From the NCBI GenBank assembly GCA_014879945.1, contig JACSRE010000251.1:1-42448 (forward strand): 42,448 nt of DNA, read 5' to 3'. A program made the translations under genes and the position numbers. The notes under the pieces were generated by a model, which saw nothing but the letters and a program-made list of their open reading frames with translations, was not told the origin of the DNA and searched no databases. Below, in pieces: positions 27,106 through 40,898 of the stretch; the first letter of the stretch is position 1; each line of letters opens with the position of its first letter. This DNA is from Myxococcus sp. Its GTDB lineage: Bacteria > Myxococcota > Myxococcia > Myxococcales > Myxococcaceae.

Positions 27106-27609
27106 TCAGGGGGCCTCGAGCGCCTCGCGCACCTTGCGCTCGAGCTCGGCGGGCGCCACCACCCCGCTGTAGGCCGCGATCACCTGGCCGGAGCGATCGA
27201 AGAGCACCCGGGCCGGCAGCTCCCGAATCCGCCCGAAGGGCGTCCGCCCGCCGCGGAGCCGATCGTCGCCCACCAGCAGCGGGTAGCGGAGCTTGTACTC
27301 GGCGGCGAACGGCTCGAGCACGCGCCGCCCCTCGAGATCGAGCCCCACCAGCACCTGGGTGAAGCCCTTCGCCCCGAAGTCGCGCTCGAGGTTGTCGAGG
27401 CTCACCAGGTCGGCCAGGCAGGGGAAGCACCAGGTGGCGATGAAGGTGACGAGCACCACCTTGCCGGTGAGCGCGCCGCGATCGAAGCGCACCGGGCCCA
27501 CCACGTCTTGTGGGAGCGTGCCGATGAAGACGTCACGGTGCGGCAGCCCCGAGGCCGGGGAGTGCGCGCACCCGCCCAGCAACAGCACCGCCAGCCAGAG
27601 GCGCCTCAC
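27106..27609 (-). CDS. Thioredoxin-like (TlpA/ResA-type) lipoprotein
   Basis: The product is 167 residues. The GTG start at 27609 overlaps the stop of the fur gene, and GGAG precedes it. A lipobox ends at Cys 14 (VLLLGGC), so the protein sits on a membrane facing the periplasm. The redox site ATWCFPCLADL gives CFPC (C61, C64) in the usual place for TlpA/ResA/AhpC-TSA-like proteins. The following pattern (LDNLERDFGAKGFTQVLVG; ELPARVLFDRSGQV) is family-typical, with the cis-Pro in LPAR. Such proteins reduce disulfides, for example during cytochrome c maturation. Coupling to a Fur regulator suggests metal or oxidative-stress control, which is inference. Confidence 0.88.
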   Translation of the reverse strand: MRRLWLAVLLLGGCAHSPASGLPHRDVFIGTLPQDVVGPVRFDRGALTGKVVLVTFIATWCFPCLADLVSLDNLERDFGAKGFTQVLVGLDLEGRRVLEPFAAEYKLRYPLLVGDDRLRGGRTPFGRIRELPARVLFDRSGQVIAAYSGVVAPAELERKVREALEAP

Positions 27610-28070
27610 ACCCGCTCCGCGTCGACCACCTTCTGGCAGGCGCGGCACAGGCCGTAGAGCTCCATCTTGTGCGAGGTGACGCGGAAGCCGTGCTTGCGCG
27701 CCACCGCGTCTTGCATCTGCTCGATGCGATCGTTCTCGAACTCGATGATGGTGCCGCAGCGGGTGCAGATCAGGTGATCGTGGTGCTCGCGCCCCACCGT
27801 CGGCTCGTAGCGCGTCTGCCCGTCGCCGAAGTTCTGGGCGTTCGCCAGGCCGCTCTCGGCCAGCAGCTTCATGGTCCGGTACACCGTCGCCACCGAGACC
27901 CGCGGGTCGTGCTCCCGCACCTTCGCCCAGAGCTGCTCGACCGAGAAGTGGCCGTCGAGCTGGAAGAAGGTCTCGAGGATCAGGTGGCGCTGCCGCGTCG
28001 CCTTGAGCCGCCGCTCGTCCATGAAGCGCGCGATGATCGCCTCACGGGCCGCACGATCGGGCATCGTCAT
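27606..28070 (-). CDS. Fur-family metalloregulator
   Basis: The product is 154 residues from ATG 28070, which overlaps the upstream gene's stop (ATGA). The winged-helix domain covers residues ~10-90, with recognition-helix pattern DPRVSVATVYRTMKLLAESGL. The metal region is HHDHLICTRCG (H96, H97, H99, C102, C105), with H134 and a second pair CRACQ (C142, C145). The two CxxC pairs form the structural zinc site, and the histidines and E110 fit a regulatory metal site. It could be Fur, PerR or Zur; sequence alone does not decide. It is the middle gene of a three-gene coupled operon. Confidence 0.92.
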   Translation of the reverse strand: MTMPDRAAREAIIARFMDERRLKATRQRHLILETFFQLDGHFSVEQLWAKVREHDPRVSVATVYRTMKLLAESGLANAQNFGDGQTRYEPTVGREHHDHLICTRCGTIIEFENDRIEQMQDAVARKHGFRVTSHKMELYGLCRACQKVVDAERV

Positions 28071-28624
28071 GGGAAGCGGGCCCTCCACGCCTCGGGCTGC
28101 TCGCCGAGATCGGCGCCGCCGTTGAGGCGCACCAGGGCGTCATGGGCCGCCGCGCGAACCGCCGGGCGCTCGTCGTTCAGCAGGGCGATCAACCGGGGCG
28201 CCTCCGCCGTCGCCTGGCGCCACCCCACCACCTCGGCCGCCAGCGCGCGCACCCGGGGATCTCGATCGGACAGCTGCGCGCTCAGCGCGGCGGGAGCGTC
28301 GATCGGCCGCACCACCTGCGGGAACAACAGCAACATGAAGAACAGCACCGCCACGACGATCTGGGCGAAGGCCTTGAACGGCGAGTACCGCCTGGCGACC
28401 ACCAGGGCCAGGCGGTAGGCGGCGAAGCCGACGGCGAAGGCGAGGAAGGCCCAGGGCGCGAAGCGCGACAGCGGCTCAGGCGCGGTGGGGCTCTGCTGGG
28501 CCCAGAGCGCCAGGAGCGCCGAGCCGACGAGCAACACGAACAGCAGCAGCGGCAAGACCGGTCTGACCCGGACCCCGGCGACGCTCGGCTCTTCGGTTGG
28601 TGGGGTGAGCGGTTGAGCGTTCAT
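28067..28624 (-). CDS. Membrane protein with C-terminal HEAT-like repeats
   Basis: The product is 185 residues from ATG 28624; AAGG lies 7 bases upstream, which favours it over a GTG at 28630. About three hydrophobic segments cover residues 22-45, 57-78 and 84-104. The C-terminal ~75 residues (LSDRDPRVRALAAEVVGW; LLNDERPAVRAAAHDALVRL) form two or three HEAT-like helices, a protein-protein contact fold. The first gene of a coupled operon with fur and the thioredoxin-like lipoprotein, it may be a membrane-tethered partner of one of them. I do not recognise a named family. Confidence 0.78.
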   Translation of the reverse strand: MNAQPLTPPTEEPSVAGVRVRPVLPLLLFVLLVGSALLALWAQQSPTAPEPLSRFAPWAFLAFAVGFAAYRLALVVARRYSPFKAFAQIVVAVLFFMLLLFPQVVRPIDAPAALSAQLSDRDPRVRALAAEVVGWRQATAEAPRLIALLNDERPAVRAAAHDALVRLNGGADLGEQPEAWRARFP

Positions 28625-28651
28625 TGACACCCTTGGGCCAACGCTTATAGC
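28624..28651 (+). promoter_or_regulatory. Sigma70-type promoter for the gene at 28675
   Basis: A perfect TTGACA (28624-28629) is followed after 16 bases by TATAGC (28646-28651). A start near 28658 would leave a leader of about 17 bases. The -35 box overlaps the start codon of the divergent HEAT-repeat gene, so the two units share about 50 bases. Confidence 0.6.
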
Positions 28652-28674
28652 GAGCCGCGGCGCAAAACGCAGAC

Positions 28675-29841
28675 ATGAGTAGCTGGAATCGCAAGCGGCA
28701 CCCCGATGATGTCCCGACCCCCGTCGCCGTGGCGGTGGCCGACTTCTGTCGACGGGCCAAAGCGCCCGCCTCGCCCGCCCTGGTGCGCGACGCGCTCTCG
28801 CTGCTGGCCGACGCCGATGACGGGGCCGTTCGCTCGTTGACCGACGAGGCGCCAGAGGCCACGCCGCTGGGGCCGTTCGCCGTCGTCGATCTCATCAAGG
28901 GCACGAAGGCCAGCGTCGCGGCCGAGCGCCAGGCGGCTGGGTATTACGAGATGGTGCGGCTGGCGACGCTGGCCGAGCCGCTGCCCGAAGTCCCTGCCGA
29001 GAAGGCCCCGGTGAAGGCGCGGCCGTCGAGCCCAACCGCGCCGGCCAGGGCACGCAAGCCGCGCAAGGCCCGCGAGTCGGTCGACGACAAGATCGCGCCG
29101 AAGAAGCGCGTCGCGGGCGCTCCGGTGGCGACGAAGGCCAAAGCCAAGCAGCCCCTGCCCGGCACGGCCTTCCTTCCCAAACGCCACCTGCCGCCGCCCC
29201 GGGGCCGCTTCACCCGGCTCGACTCCTCCCGCAGCACCTACGAGGCCCTGCTCAAGCCCGAGGCGCGCGAGAACCTGTCGGTCGTCGTCGAGCAGTCGGC
29301 CACCCGCTTCCACGTCTTTCAGACGCTCGAGGCGGCCTACACGGGGCGCTCGGGCCAGCCGCTGACGGTCGCCGAGGTGGAGGGCGCGCTGAGCCGGCAC
29401 GCCCTGCTCGACGGCCTCGAGAAGCGGGAGCGCGACAGGGTGCTGGTGTCGCTCGCCACCGCGCGCGGCTCGGTGCCGACGGCGGCGAAGGAGCTGGGCG
29501 TTCGGCCCGCCGACATCGATCGGCTGATCGCCGAGCTGCGGCTCAAGCGCGAAGTGCAGTCGATCAAAGAGACCTTCGTGCGCGAGGCGCTCGACCCCGG
29601 CAACCTCGCCCTGCGCCTGGCGATGCTCGGCCGCCAGCGGTACCTGGCCGATCTGAAGATCGAGAAGCGCTTCACCGACGCGCTGACCCGCGACGTGACG
29701 AAGCTCCTCGACGAGTCAGCCGACGCCGCCAACACGGTCGAAGAGCTGGTCGAGCTGACGGCGAAGAAGCACGCGATTGTTCCCGACCTGTTGAACCGCG
29801 CGGTGGACCGCCTGGGTCTCACGCGCCGCTACATGAGGTGA
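28675..29841 (+). CDS. Unknown protein with Pro/Lys/Ala linker and helical C-terminus
   Basis: The product is 388 residues. Residues 1-95 look globular and helical (VPTPVAVAVADFCRRAK; LVRDALSLLADADDG). Residues ~105-185 are a basic Pro/Ala/Lys-rich linker, and ~185-388 are helical again. Within the latter, VLVSLATARGSVPTAAKELG, continuing to about residue 285, looks like a Fis-type helix-turn-helix, which makes DNA binding plausible. The repeated short-helix C-terminal region has no other motif that I recognise. No signal peptide is present. The gene is the first of the plus-strand run and has its own promoter. The coding call is firm; a DNA-binding role is a guess. Confidence 0.75.
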   Translation: MSSWNRKRHPDDVPTPVAVAVADFCRRAKAPASPALVRDALSLLADADDGAVRSLTDEAPEATPLGPFAVVDLIKGTKASVAAERQAAGYYEMVRLATLAEPLPEVPAEKAPVKARPSSPTAPARARKPRKARESVDDKIAPKKRVAGAPVATKAKAKQPLPGTAFLPKRHLPPPRGRFTRLDSSRSTYEALLKPEARENLSVVVEQSATRFHVFQTLEAAYTGRSGQPLTVAEVEGALSRHALLDGLEKRERDRVLVSLATARGSVPTAAKELGVRPADIDRLIAELRLKREVQSIKETFVREALDPGNLALRLAMLGRQRYLADLKIEKRFTDALTRDVTKLLDESADAANTVEELVELTAKKHAIVPDLLNRAVDRLGLTRRYMR

Positions 29842-29845
29842 GTCC

Positions 29846-30259
29846 ATGCCCATCTACGAATACCGCTGCCAGAAGTGTGGAAACGATCTCGAGGTCATGC
29901 AGAAGGTCTCTGACCCGGCGCCCGTGAAGTGCGAGAAGTGCGGGGCCGACAACAGCTTCGAGCGGCTGATGAGCCGCAGCAGCTTCCAGCTCAAGGGCGG
30001 CGGCTGGTACTCCGATCTCTACGGCTCCACCAAGAAGGACTCGGGCTCCGGCTCGGGCAGCAGCGGCGGCGCGGGTGGTGGCGCGGCGGGCTCCGGCTCG
30101 GGCTCGACCCCTCCCGCCTCGACGTCGGGTGGAACCGGCGGCACGTCGGGTGGAACCGGCGGCACCTCGGGTGGAACCGGTGGATCGTCCGGTGGAACCG
30201 GCGGCACCTCGGGTGGAACCGGTGGATCGTCCGGTGGCTCCTCAGCGAGCGCCGCGTGA
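29846..30259 (+). CDS. FmdB-family zinc ribbon protein with Gly/Ser/Thr repeat tail
   Basis: The product is 137 residues. Residues 1-60 are a FmdB-type zinc ribbon: MPIYEYRCQKCG, then KCEKCG, with Cys 8, 11, 29 and 32 binding zinc, and FERLMSRSSFQLKG[G]GW, typical of the family. FmdB proteins are small regulators or accessory proteins of uncertain role. The last ~75 residues are almost only Gly, Ser, Thr and Ala, including five copies of SGGTGG[TS]. The stop codon overlaps the start of the next gene. Confidence 0.9.
   Translation: MPIYEYRCQKCGNDLEVMQKVSDPAPVKCEKCGADNSFERLMSRSSFQLKGGGWYSDLYGSTKKDSGSGSGSSGGAGGGAAGSGSGSTPPASTSGGTGGTSGGTGGTSGGTGGSSGGTGGTSGGTGGSSGGSSASAA
30125..30238 (+). repeat. 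21-base tandem repeat encoding SGGTGG[TS]
   Basis: Five full copies (starting at 30125, 30146, 30167, 30188 and 30209) and a partial sixth share the core GGTGGAACCGG. It is in-frame and likely prone to copy-number change. Confidence 0.9.
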
Positions 30260-30957
30260 GGAGCGCCCTGCTCGGGGTGCTCCTGTCGCTGAGCGGCTGC
30301 GCGACCTCGCAGGTCTTCGTTCCTCCCGAGCAGGCGGCCGCGCTCCAGCGATCGCTCGCCGGGGAAGAGCGGTACCTGCGCATCGCCTTCTTCGGCACGC
30401 CGTTCTTCGGCGACTCGACCAAGAAGCTGCTCTCGCCGGTCAGCCCCGACCAGGTGCGCGCGCTGAACAACCCCGACGGCACCCCGGTGAGCCCCGGCCC
30501 GGTCGAGCGGGTGTTCGCGCCCGGCACCGCGGCGCGCGTGCTCAAGGTGGAGTTCCCCACGGCCTACGCGATGAGCGAGCGGGTGCTCTACACGCCGCGG
30601 ACCCTGGCCTGGGTGTACCTCGACGTGGCGGGGACGCCGAAGCAGAGCCCGCCGTACATCCTCCTGCTGCGCCCCGGCCTCAAGGACGAGCACGAGGTGC
30701 TCAGCGAGGTGGAGCGCTACCTGTCGAAGGAGCCCGTCAAGCCGTTGCTCGACGGCTTCACCGAGACGGTGCGGGCGGCGGTGCTCGAGAAGAAGGCGAT
30801 CGTGGACATGCCCGCCGAGGCCCTCGAGATGGCCTGGGGCTACCCTGAGCAGAAGCGCTTCGAGCTCGAGGGCACCGTGAAGAAAGAGACCTGGCTCTAC
30901 GCCGAGGGCCGTCGCCAGGCCGTGCTGCGCGACGGGAAGGTCGCGGAGCTGAAGTAG
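30256..30957 (+). CDS. Predicted lipoprotein of unknown function
   Basis: The product is 233 residues. The GTG start at 30256 overlaps the fmdB stop (GTGA). A lipobox LSGC puts the lipid on Cys 15 (SLSGCATSQ). The body is mixed alpha/beta (LRIAFFGTPFFGDSTKKLL; ERVLYTPRTLAWVYLDVAG) with no catalytic motif that I know. A long frame starting at 29929 runs into the same frame, but its first part is antiphase to fmdB and not real. It is translationally coupled to fmdB and followed five bases later by the CULT gene. It probably works in the envelope; nothing more can be said. Confidence 0.75.
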   Translation: MRSALLGVLLSLSGCATSQVFVPPEQAAALQRSLAGEERYLRIAFFGTPFFGDSTKKLLSPVSPDQVRALNNPDGTPVSPGPVERVFAPGTAARVLKVEFPTAYAMSERVLYTPRTLAWVYLDVAGTPKQSPPYILLLRPGLKDEHEVLSEVERYLSKEPVKPLLDGFTETVRAAVLEKKAIVDMPAEALEMAWGYPEQKRFELEGTVKKETWLYAEGRRQAVLRDGKVAELK

Positions 30958-30962
30958 CCCTC

Positions 30963-31331
30963 ATGGCGGAGCCCGTCGCCGACGCGCAGGGCTCCACCAG
31001 GGTCGAGCAGGCGCCCCCAGCGCGGTTCTGGCGCTGCCGAAGGTGCCTGGCCGCGATCACCACCGACGATCAGCGCCTCGAGATCGACGGCCGGCACGTG
31101 CACCTGCGGCTCAACCCCGGCGCGTTCGCCTTCCTGTTCGGGTGCTTTCAGAGCGCCCGCGGCGCCACGCCGGTCGGCGCGCCCACCGACGAGGCCACCT
31201 GGTTCCCGGGGCACCGCTGGCAGCTCTCGATGTGCAGCGACTGCGGCGCCCACCTGGGCTGGAGCTTCAGCGGGCCCTCGGCGTTCGTGGGCCTGGTGTT
31301 GGAGCGCCTGGCGCCGCCCGAGGGCGGCTGA
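30963..31331 (+). CDS. Stand-alone CULT-domain (cereblon-like) protein
   Basis: The product is 122 residues. The domain starts RFWRCRRCLAAIT and has a second pair in MCSDCGAHLGW, so zinc ligands are C25, C28, C91 and C94. The core is TWFPGHRWQLSMCSDCGAHL, ending LGWSF. This is the pattern of the CULT domain, known from the thalidomide-binding part of cereblon and from single-domain bacterial proteins such as Magnetospirillum MsCI4. The aromatic cage W79/W85/W99 plus Y101 of MsCI4 has an exact counterpart here: W80, W86, W100 and F102, at the same spacing. It should bind a small ring ligand such as a uracil- or imide-type group. It has no export signal and lies five bases after the lipoprotein gene. 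Confidence 0.88.
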   Translation: MAEPVADAQGSTRVEQAPPARFWRCRRCLAAITTDDQRLEIDGRHVHLRLNPGAFAFLFGCFQSARGATPVGAPTDEATWFPGHRWQLSMCSDCGAHLGWSFSGPSAFVGLVLERLAPPEGG

Positions 31332-37772: not shown

Positions 37773-40355
37773 ATGACGATCTCCCTCCTGGTCGCTTCCG
37801 TCCTGGCCGCTGGCAACCCGGCCGCCTTCCTGCCCAAGAACCGCCCGTACGACGCGCAGAGCTACCGCATCGAGACGACGCTCGCCGAGGACGGCACGTT
37901 CAAGAACAAGCTGATCGCGAAGGTGCTGATCACCAGGGCGACCGGCGAGCTCGAGTTCGACGCCTACGATCTCAACGTCGACTTCGCGCTCGTCGACGGC
38001 AAGCCGGCCGTGCCCACCCCGCGCTACGACCCCGAGACCCGCACCGGCACCCTGACGCTGAAGGCGGCGGGCCTGACGCCGAAGAAAGAGGTCACCGTCG
38101 AGATCTCGTACACGGGCAAGGCCGGCAACCAGCACGAGGGCTTCTTCCAGGTGAAGGACGCCGAAGACCCCAAGCTGCTGCCGTACTACTTCACGCACTT
38201 TCAGCCGCACTTCGCGCAGCGCTTCTTCCCCAACAACGATCAGCCGGGCGACAAGGCCGCGGTCGAGGTCTACGCGGTCGTCGACAGCCGCTACACGGTG
38301 CTCTCGAACGGCGTGAAGACGAAGGACGAGGTCTTTCAAGAGAACGGGAAGAACCTGCGCCGGGTGGAGTGGAAGCAGGAGAAGCCACACTCGACCTACT
38401 TCACCGCGCTCGCCATCGGCCAGTTCGAGCCGGTGGTGATCAGCGAAGACCTGCCGTCCACGATGTGGGTCGCGCCCGGCCGCAAGGACCGCGCCTGGGT
38501 GGTGGTCAACGAGCTCAAGCCGATGTGGAACTTCCAGGTCGGCTACACCGGCACCCGGTACGGCTGGCCCAAGCTCGACATCGTGGCCCTGCCCCGCTTC
38601 TTCTGGAGCGGCATGGAGAACACCTCGCTCATCTTCATGCGCGAGTCGAAGGTGAACGTCGAGGTGAAGAACGACCAGCTCGCGCGGCCGGTGGTGATGA
38701 AGCTGCTGGCCAACGAGATGGCCCACCAGTGGTTCGGCAACCTCGTCACCAGCAAGTGGTGGGACGAGCTCTGGCTCGACGAGGGCATCACCACCCACCT
38801 CGGCGAGGCCACCTCTGACGACGCCAACGGCAACGAGCAGGTCGAGGTCGAGCGCACCGTGGCCATCGTCGAAGACTACTTCCGCCAGGAGGACGGCCCC
38901 CGCGCCCACGCGCTGGTGATGAAGGGCGCCACCGCGGCCGAGTCCTCCGACGCCGTCACCACCCGCAAGGGCGCCGCGGTCGCGCGCATGCTCGAGCTGT
39001 GGCTGGGCAAGAAGGAGTTCAAGGCCGGCCTCAAGGCCTACCTCGAGAAGTACGCGTACCAGAGCGCCACCACCGACGACTTCTTCAAGGCGGTGCTCGA
39101 GGCCAACAAGAAAGAGAAGGACAAGGACCTGAAGGGCTTCAAGGACGCCTGGGTGAACAAGAAGGGCTACCCGGTGATCTTCCCCGAGTTCTCGTTCAGC
39201 GGCTCGCAGGTGACGGTGACGATTCGCCAGCAGAACTCGAACCCCACCGAGAAGGGGCCGTTCGTCTTCAAGCTGCCCATCGTGGTGCACCGCCAGAACG
39301 AGCCGCAGTACACGGTGAAGCAGACCATCCTGGTGGACAAGCCCGAGGTGAAGTTCACCTTCGACGTGCCGGCCGCGCCCCAGTGGATCAACTGGAACGA
39401 AGACTTCGGCGCCCTGGTGCGGGTCAACAAGACCAGCGTGTCAGAGGAGCAGTGGGTGGACTCGGCCCGCTACGACGCCGACCCGACCTGGCGGCTGATC
39501 GCCGCGTGGAACCTGCTGGGCGAGCTCGGCAACCCGAACATGGAGACCGAGGCGCGCCCCACCGACGCCGCCCTCAACGCCATCCTCGATCTGCTCGCCA
39601 AAGATCCCTCGCCGTACGTTCGTGAAGGCGTGCTCAAGCGGCTGACCGACTCGCGCTTCAAGCGGCTGCCCAAGGACTTCGCGACCATCGCCCTCAAGCT
39701 GGCGCAGAAGCCCGAGAACCTGAACGACGACCCGCTCGGCTACATGCGGGTGCGCGGCGCCGCCCTCGAGATGCTGGGCAAGACCGACGCCCCCGATGGG
39801 CACCCGTACATCCTCGAGCGGCTCGGCAAGCGCGAGATCGACATCAACTTCCTGGGCGCCTTCGCGGGCGGCGCCGCGCGCATCAACACTCCGGCGGCGC
39901 TGGCGACCTTGAAGAGCGCCATCGTCACCCAGAAGGGCCGCGGCTACCCCTTCTTCCGCCGCACCGCCGAGGCGCTCGGCTCCATGGAGGGCCCCGAGGT
40001 GATCGCCTCGATTCGCGAGCTGCTGATCGAGAACGCGAACAACCCCGAGCTCACCCGGCAGCTCTTCAACCGCCTCAGCGACAACCGCGCGCTCCGCGAG
40101 AACCCGGACTTCGCCCCGATGATCGCCGTGCTGGTGACCGACGACGCGTTCAACGGCGACGACATTCGCGAGATGATGCTGGCCTCGCTCGACGACGTGA
40201 AGACGGGCGTGGCGAAAGAGGCGCTGCTCGACGTGCTCAAGAACTCGAAGAGCGAGCAGGTGAAGGCCAGCGCGAAGAAGGTGCTCGACGCCAACTTCCC
40301 TGCGCCGCCGCCCGCCGCGCCCGTGAAGGACGCCAAGGGCGGCAAGAAGAAGTAG
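37773..40355 (+). CDS. M1-family aminopeptidase homologue with degenerate active site
   Basis: The product is 860 residues with a probable signal peptide (MTISLLVASVLAAG). It has the M1 layout: N-terminal beta domain, thermolysin-like domain, and a long helical C-terminal region (~560-860) with HEAT-like repeats. The motif SGMENTS (G280-N283) stands for GAMEN. The zinc motif HEXXH reads NEMAH (314-318), so the first zinc His is Asn 314. The following QWFGNLVTSKWWDELWLDEG keeps the third zinc ligand, E337. The catalytic Tyr, four positions before the conserved Gly in YEKG, is Thr (TTRKG, T397; E. coli PepN has Y381 at the same spacing). It is therefore likely a non-catalytic relative. See the finding on this gene. 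Confidence 0.9.
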   Translation: MTISLLVASVLAAGNPAAFLPKNRPYDAQSYRIETTLAEDGTFKNKLIAKVLITRATGELEFDAYDLNVDFALVDGKPAVPTPRYDPETRTGTLTLKAAGLTPKKEVTVEISYTGKAGNQHEGFFQVKDAEDPKLLPYYFTHFQPHFAQRFFPNNDQPGDKAAVEVYAVVDSRYTVLSNGVKTKDEVFQENGKNLRRVEWKQEKPHSTYFTALAIGQFEPVVISEDLPSTMWVAPGRKDRAWVVVNELKPMWNFQVGYTGTRYGWPKLDIVALPRFFWSGMENTSLIFMRESKVNVEVKNDQLARPVVMKLLANEMAHQWFGNLVTSKWWDELWLDEGITTHLGEATSDDANGNEQVEVERTVAIVEDYFRQEDGPRAHALVMKGATAAESSDAVTTRKGAAVARMLELWLGKKEFKAGLKAYLEKYAYQSATTDDFFKAVLEANKKEKDKDLKGFKDAWVNKKGYPVIFPEFSFSGSQVTVTIRQQNSNPTEKGPFVFKLPIVVHRQNEPQYTVKQTILVDKPEVKFTFDVPAAPQWINWNEDFGALVRVNKTSVSEEQWVDSARYDADPTWRLIAAWNLLGELGNPNMETEARPTDAALNAILDLLAKDPSPYVREGVLKRLTDSRFKRLPKDFATIALKLAQKPENLNDDPLGYMRVRGAALEMLGKTDAPDGHPYILERLGKREIDINFLGAFAGGAARINTPAALATLKSAIVTQKGRGYPFFRRTAEALGSMEGPEVIASIRELLIENANNPELTRQLFNRLSDNRALRENPDFAPMIAVLVTDDAFNGDDIREMMLASLDDVKTGVAKEALLDVLKNSKSEQVKASAKKVLDANFPAPPPAAPVKDAKGGKKK

Positions 40356-40370
40356 CCAGCCGCCTGGCTA
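40353..40370. terminator. Palindrome spanning both stop codons of convergent genes
   Basis: A perfect 7-base stem with tetraloop (TAGCCAG-CCGC-CTGGCTA) contains the plus-strand stop TAG (40353-40355) and the minus-strand stop (40368-40370). It may act as a compact bidirectional terminator, but no U-tract follows. Confidence 0.45.
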
Positions 40371-40799
40371 CTGGGCGCCGGTGCAGATCCAGTCCTTCAC
40401 CAGCTTCTGCTGATCGGCGGGCAGCGCGCCGCCGGGAGGCATCACGCCGCCGAGGGACTCGCCGGCCGGCCCCTTGCGGGCGTTGAGCTTGAGCCACAGC
40501 ACGCTGCGGCTGAGGCTGTTGGCCTCGACCACCTTGAGGCCCGGCGCCACCTTCGAGCTCTTCGCCACCGCCGCCGCCGTGCGCGCCGCGTCGCTGTAGT
40601 CGCCGTTGGAGGCGTCGAAGGCGTTGTGGCAGCTCTTGCACTGCTTATCGAAGATCTGCGCCTGGACGGTCGCCGAGAGCGTCACCGGGGTCGTCACCGC
40701 AGGGTCGCACAGCAGCTCGGGCGGCCCCGCGTCCACCGTCATCATCTGCTGCCCACAGCCCACCAGCACCGCCACCGAAGCCATCGCGAGAGAACGCAT
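40368..40799 (-). CDS. Cytochrome-c-like lipoprotein
   Basis: The product is 143 residues from ATG 40799 with GAAGG six bases upstream. The lipobox LVGC gives lipidated Cys 15. The heme motif is KQCKSCHNAFD (C54, C57, H58), and the likely axial Met is M120 in GGVMPPGGALP, followed by QKLVKDWICTGAQ. This is the pattern of the small 'planctomycete-type' cytochrome c domain found on surface and periplasmic proteins. It should carry electrons in the envelope. It shares only 12 bases with the M1 gene and is followed on its own strand by nothing else. The GroEL terminator lies just upstream. Confidence 0.85.
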   Translation of the reverse strand: MRSLAMASVAVLVGCGQQMMTVDAGPPELLCDPAVTTPVTLSATVQAQIFDKQCKSCHNAFDASNGDYSDAARTAAAVAKSSKVAPGLKVVEANSLSRSVLWLKLNARKGPAGESLGGVMPPGGALPADQQKLVKDWICTGAQ

Positions 40800-40853
40800 G
40801 GCGCCTTCGTACACACCGCGCGGGGCCTGCGCACCAGCTTCGCGCCAGCCGCA

Positions 40854-40898
40854 AACGAAGGCCCCGGTCACTCCCATGGGGAGCGCCGGGGCCTCGTT
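40854..40898 (-). terminator. Terminator-like hairpin after groEL
   Basis: On the minus strand a 12-13-base stem (AACGAGGCCCCGG with CCGGGGCCTTCGTT, one bulge) encloses a second short stem. It lies 33 bases past the groEL stop. No long U-run follows. Confidence 0.7.

Follow-up and report, generated by a model that had tools for sequence, protein, structure and literature searches.

A predicted secreted M1-family protein retained after loss of its first zinc ligand in a genus of uncultured Myxococcaceae

Aminopeptidases of family M1, including human puromycin-sensitive aminopeptidase (PSA/NPEPPS), Escherichia coli PepN and aminopeptidase N, consist of an M1 N-domain, a thermolysin-like catalytic domain, an Ig-like domain and a helical C-terminus. 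In PSA, the source of the residue numbering and roles used here, the Glu of the GMEN motif (Glu319) has been proposed as the residue that binds the amino terminus of the substrate, and the Y438F substitution lowers kcat 1000-fold (PMC10343166). Replacement of the first His of the zinc site of rat aminopeptidase B by Tyr, Ala or Phe (H325Y, H325A, H325F) left 0% activity in each case; Asn was not among the substitutions made (PMC2241622). Pseudoenzymes of M1 and of other HEXXH families are already known. Yeast Tma108, an M1 member described as a pseudopeptidase in a review, is thought to bind the N-terminal part of proteins via the old substrate pocket of the M1 fold (PMC11266112); it keeps its zinc ligands, has one substrate-binding residue altered and acts on nascent chains in the cytosol. 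Non-random, lineage-conserved losses of HEXXH residues have been described for ADAMs, CLCA and the M13 protein Gone early (PMC3650047, PMC11266112). These belong to other, mostly animal, families, and the first-His changes highlighted among them are to Arg and Glu, not Asn. The literature searched says little about bacterial M1 pseudo-aminopeptidases, and a search of it for NEXXH returned no match.

The gene examined here lies in a 42,448-nucleotide stretch of a myxobacterial contig (JACSRE010000251.1), hereafter the window. Its product (Table 1) has the domain order of M1 aminopeptidases and belongs to the family by descent, both M1 domains scoring above their curated Pfam cut-offs (Peptidase_M1, E 1.1e-44, 153.1 versus 27.7 bits; Peptidase_M1_N, E 8.9e-20, 72 versus 25.8 bits). 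It falls below the cut-offs of the aminopeptidase N equivalogs (TIGR02412, 181 versus 591 bits; TIGR02414, 113 versus 718 bits) and likewise does not reach that of the LTA4H equivalog. As in M1 aminopeptidases, GMEN and the final Glu of HEXXHX18E are present; unlike in those enzymes, the first zinc His is Asn, the catalytic Tyr is Thr and the Asn of NEXFA is Asp. The protein resembles ADAMs, CLCA and Gone early in that its HEXXH loss is conserved within a lineage, and differs from Tma108 in having lost a metal ligand and in looking secreted. The signal-like N-terminus, whose n-region contains no Lys or Arg, suggests export and hence a location outside the cytoplasm. A structure prediction built from seven sequences, of low confidence (pLDDT 53), places helices from residue 558 to 841; with pLDDT of 23–41 over catalytic-domain residues 231–410, it is too poor for reading the active site or for a fold search.

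Table 1. Features of the M1-family gene, in window coordinates
Feature	Position	Strand	Evidence
Secreted M1-family pseudo-aminopeptidase (predicted), 860 aa	37773..40355	+	Open frame, third-codon GC 0.97; PF01433, PF17900, HEAT_2; orthologues in 7/7 genus genomes
Signal-peptide-like N-terminus, residues 1–18	37773..37826	+	MTISLLVASVLAAG; hydrophobic wherever an orthologue has its full 5' end
Peptidase_M1_N domain, residues 38–209, including Q144	37884..38399	+	Pfam; 8sw0 alignment
GMEN motif, residues 280–283	38610..38621	+	E282 aligned with PSA Glu319; invariant in genus
NEMAH, residues 314–318	38712..38726	+	Asn (AAC, 38712–38714) for first zinc ligand; Glu315 and His318 retained
D336-E337	38778..38783	+	Third zinc ligand E337 (38781–38783) retained; NEXFA Asn to Asp in 7/7
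T397 at catalytic Tyr position	38961..38963	+	ACC; T, N or Y across genus
Best HEAT_2 stretch, residues 561–626, helical tail	39453..39650	+	Pfam HEAT_2, E 2.2e-10

Active-site residues were mapped by phmmer alignment to human PSA (8sw0), in which NEMAHQWFGN of the window's protein aligns on HELAHQWFGN. Residues N314, E315, H318, E337, E282, Q144 and T397 correspond to PSA H352, E353, H356, E375, E319, E180 and Y438, respectively. Thus, the zinc site reads N314-E-M-A-H318 plus E337 with its first ligand replaced, the transition-state Tyr is replaced by Thr, and residue 144 is Gln where PSA has Glu180. N314 is separated by 23 residues from E337 and by 83 from T397, and the GXMEN motif is present as S279-G280-M-E-N283. 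An initial annotation, made from the window's letters, had proposed that Asn replaces the first His and Thr the Tyr while H318, E337 and GMEN remain; the open frame and the PSA alignment bear this out, and all residues it named lie within 38610–38980. With both the first ligand and the Tyr lost, peptidase activity is unlikely, judging from the rat aminopeptidase B and PSA mutants.

Orthologues were compared among seven genomes of the uncultured Myxococcaceae genus (loci L001–L007), which form a single clade with 100/100 support. The gene is present in all seven, and the six relatives are 83–91% identical to the window's protein. The first-ligand codon is AAC in every genome and the residue before the third ligand is uniformly Asp336 (N336D). 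E282, E315, H318, E337 and Q144 are also invariant; because 72% of alignment columns are invariant within the genus, such constancy of a single residue means little. Some of the genus-specific changes cluster at the metal site, namely H314N, N336D, F339I/L, A340T, F392S and Y397T/N/Y. A DNA pattern for HE..HQWFG was found in 148 of 195 phylum genomes and one for NE..HQWFG in six, all of this genus, the seventh member reading HHWFG. Of the conserved Asn and Thr in orthologues that the initial annotation took as the mark of a stable pseudoenzyme, Thr is not a conserved replacement: at the Tyr position L001–L007 carry, in order, T, T, T, Y, N, N and N, so that Tyr is lost in six of seven members. 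On the tree, members with Asn or Thr surround L004, which has Tyr. Tyr was therefore lost more than once or regained, and position 397 looks unconstrained either way.

Selection on the gene is purifying. Mean dN/dS in the genus is about 0.22 (NG86; pairs 0.04–0.28), being lowest in the Ig and HEAT parts (0.18) and 0.24 in the catalytic part, and the loss of a catalytic residue is thus fixed, seven of seven, in a lineage under constraint. Outside the control clade g16, 173 positions are invariant in intact lineages; the genus keeps 138 of these and g16, itself intact, 146, so overall constraint on the gene is nearly that on an active enzyme. Between genomes G000 and G006 the gene is 87% identical with a dN/dS of 0.25. 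The remaining three M1 genes are 72% (dN/dS 0.31), 82% (0.32) and 64% (0.56) identical, which makes it the most conserved of the four in this single genome pair. The initial annotation's interpretation is thus partly supported: the fixed Asn314, the low dN/dS and this ranking speak for a stable pseudoenzyme, and the Thr is not stable. The three other M1 genes of G000 have intact sites, and peptide trimming could therefore be covered elsewhere. The fastest-evolving of the four (64%, 0.56) is the LTA4H-like paralogue, whose site is intact (L072, G000:C116; L075, G006:C53).

Seventeen relatives from other genera of the family, some of them fragments, are 46–57% identical where full length. HEXXH, the third-ligand Glu and the Tyr are intact in all 17 wherever covered, which confines the loss to one genus and one independent case. 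The initial annotation had taken intact orthologues with mutations only in the window as a sign of recent decay or sequencing error. The first half of that description holds outside the genus, yet Asn314 is shared by all seven genus genomes. Metagenome origin of all genus members found by name would also fit an assembly error; however, the AAC codon is common to seven separate assemblies, between which dN reaches 0.116 and dS 0.48, and the orthologues have no stops. The same codon in seven genomes together with low dN/dS rules out error or decay, which we regard as having a negligible chance of being correct.

The genomic setting indicates which gene lost its ligand. The M1 gene is divergent to a conserved cluster of genes for small membrane-type proteins, including a holin-X-like protein (PF07332), a YtxH-like protein that narrowly misses its Pfam cut-off and further proteins assigned to no family. 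Parts of this cluster lie next to the M1 gene in G001, G003, G005 and G006 of the genus, and also in the intact lineages G010, G014, G015, G021, G023, G048, G076 and G079; glgB is the upstream neighbor instead in the window, G002 and G004. Because these neighbors are common to intact and Asn314 lineages, it is the single-copy positional orthologue itself that lost the ligand. No intact M1 orthologue was found alongside the pseudoenzyme copy in the seven genus genomes, and function must therefore have persisted in this one gene after catalysis was lost. A spare duplicate freed from constraint was considered and is ruled out by these two observations.

Several other features of the neighborhood were recorded. 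The holin-X-like, YtxH-like and glycine-zipper-like genes at L052 10555–13000 and their equivalents are divergent to the M1 gene whether the lineage is intact or carries the pseudoenzyme, and members of the cluster are possible functional partners of the M1 protein. Near the window's M1 gene, positions 27106–31328 encode a redoxin, a Fur-family regulator, a HEAT-repeat protein and two unknown genes. In G078 and G079, homologues of these directly adjoin the intact M1 orthologue, and the neighborhood has therefore been rearranged. Between the M1 gene and groEL, positions 40368–40877 encode a small protein that has a single c-type haem-like motif (CKSCH) and matches no Pfam family; it is 59–88% identical in the four other genus members compared.

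The independent case is L015 (G017:C426:17026–19515), a more distant relative (40% identical) from another genus of the family. Its M1 gene is likewise flanked by parts of the small-membrane-protein cluster. L015 has lost nearly the whole active site independently of the genus: HEXXH reads RALAD, so that the Glu315 and His318 equivalents are gone, GMEN reads GAEG, and Ser replaces Tyr, with no stops in the frame. The N-terminal, Ig-like and HEAT domains are 47–63% identical to those of two relatives, L012 and L038, and the catalytic domain, usually one of the better conserved regions, only 39–43%. L015 is the weaker evidence because it is one genome on a long branch with unusual composition.

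What the protein now does can be read in several ways. Asparagine can serve as a weak metal ligand, and a remodelled site in which Asn314, or Asp336, takes the place of His, with Asn-His-Glu holding zinc or another metal for slow or different catalysis, would fit the fixation of N336D together with H314N and the retention of Glu315, His318 and Glu337 in all seven members, unlike in L015. The transition-state Tyr is lost in six of seven, and the occurrence of T, N and Y at its position is explained by no hydrolytic role of that residue; the corresponding ligand mutants of rat aminopeptidase B are inactive (PMC2241622). We consider a remodelled site improbable. A protein that serves only as a scaffold, by way of the N-terminal, Ig-like and HEAT domains, the old active site being a drifting, unused relic, would agree with L015, where those domains outlasted nearly the entire site, and with the dN/dS minimum in the Ig and HEAT parts of the genus proteins. 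Against such drift, GMEN, E315, H318 and E337 are untouched in the genus, and the catalytic domain is second-best conserved relative to the intact orthologue L009 (61%, versus 52% for the N-terminal, 65% for the Ig-like and 50% for the HEAT domain). A pure scaffold is therefore also an unlikely account.

We favor, at a probability of roughly 0.6, an M1-fold protein that is secreted, no longer has peptidase activity and is maintained for a non-catalytic task, probably binding peptide or protein N-termini. Retention of GMEN, E337 and Q144 suggests binding without cutting, and because residues that bind the amino terminus are kept, an N-terminus binder is preferred, as proposed for Tma108 (PMC11266112). 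The pocket of Glu282, Glu337 and Gln144 would still hold the free N-terminus of a peptide, or of a protein in the envelope or outside the cell, and the N-terminal, Ig-like and HEAT-repeat domains would supply partner contacts. Against this reading stand the retention of the catalytic base Glu315, which a pure binder would not need, the Tyr of L004 and the capacity of Asn for weak metal binding.

More tentatively, secreted, HEAT-tailed M1 proteins of uncultured Myxococcaceae may form a subfamily with an ancestral non-catalytic role in N-terminus binding or envelope scaffolding. Peptidase activity would be dispensable to such a role, so that it could be lost at least twice from a single-copy gene while the gene was kept; we rate this wider reading as possible but less likely than the narrower one. 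Close intact orthologues at the same locus provide natural pairs for asking what a non-cutting aminopeptidase fold does.
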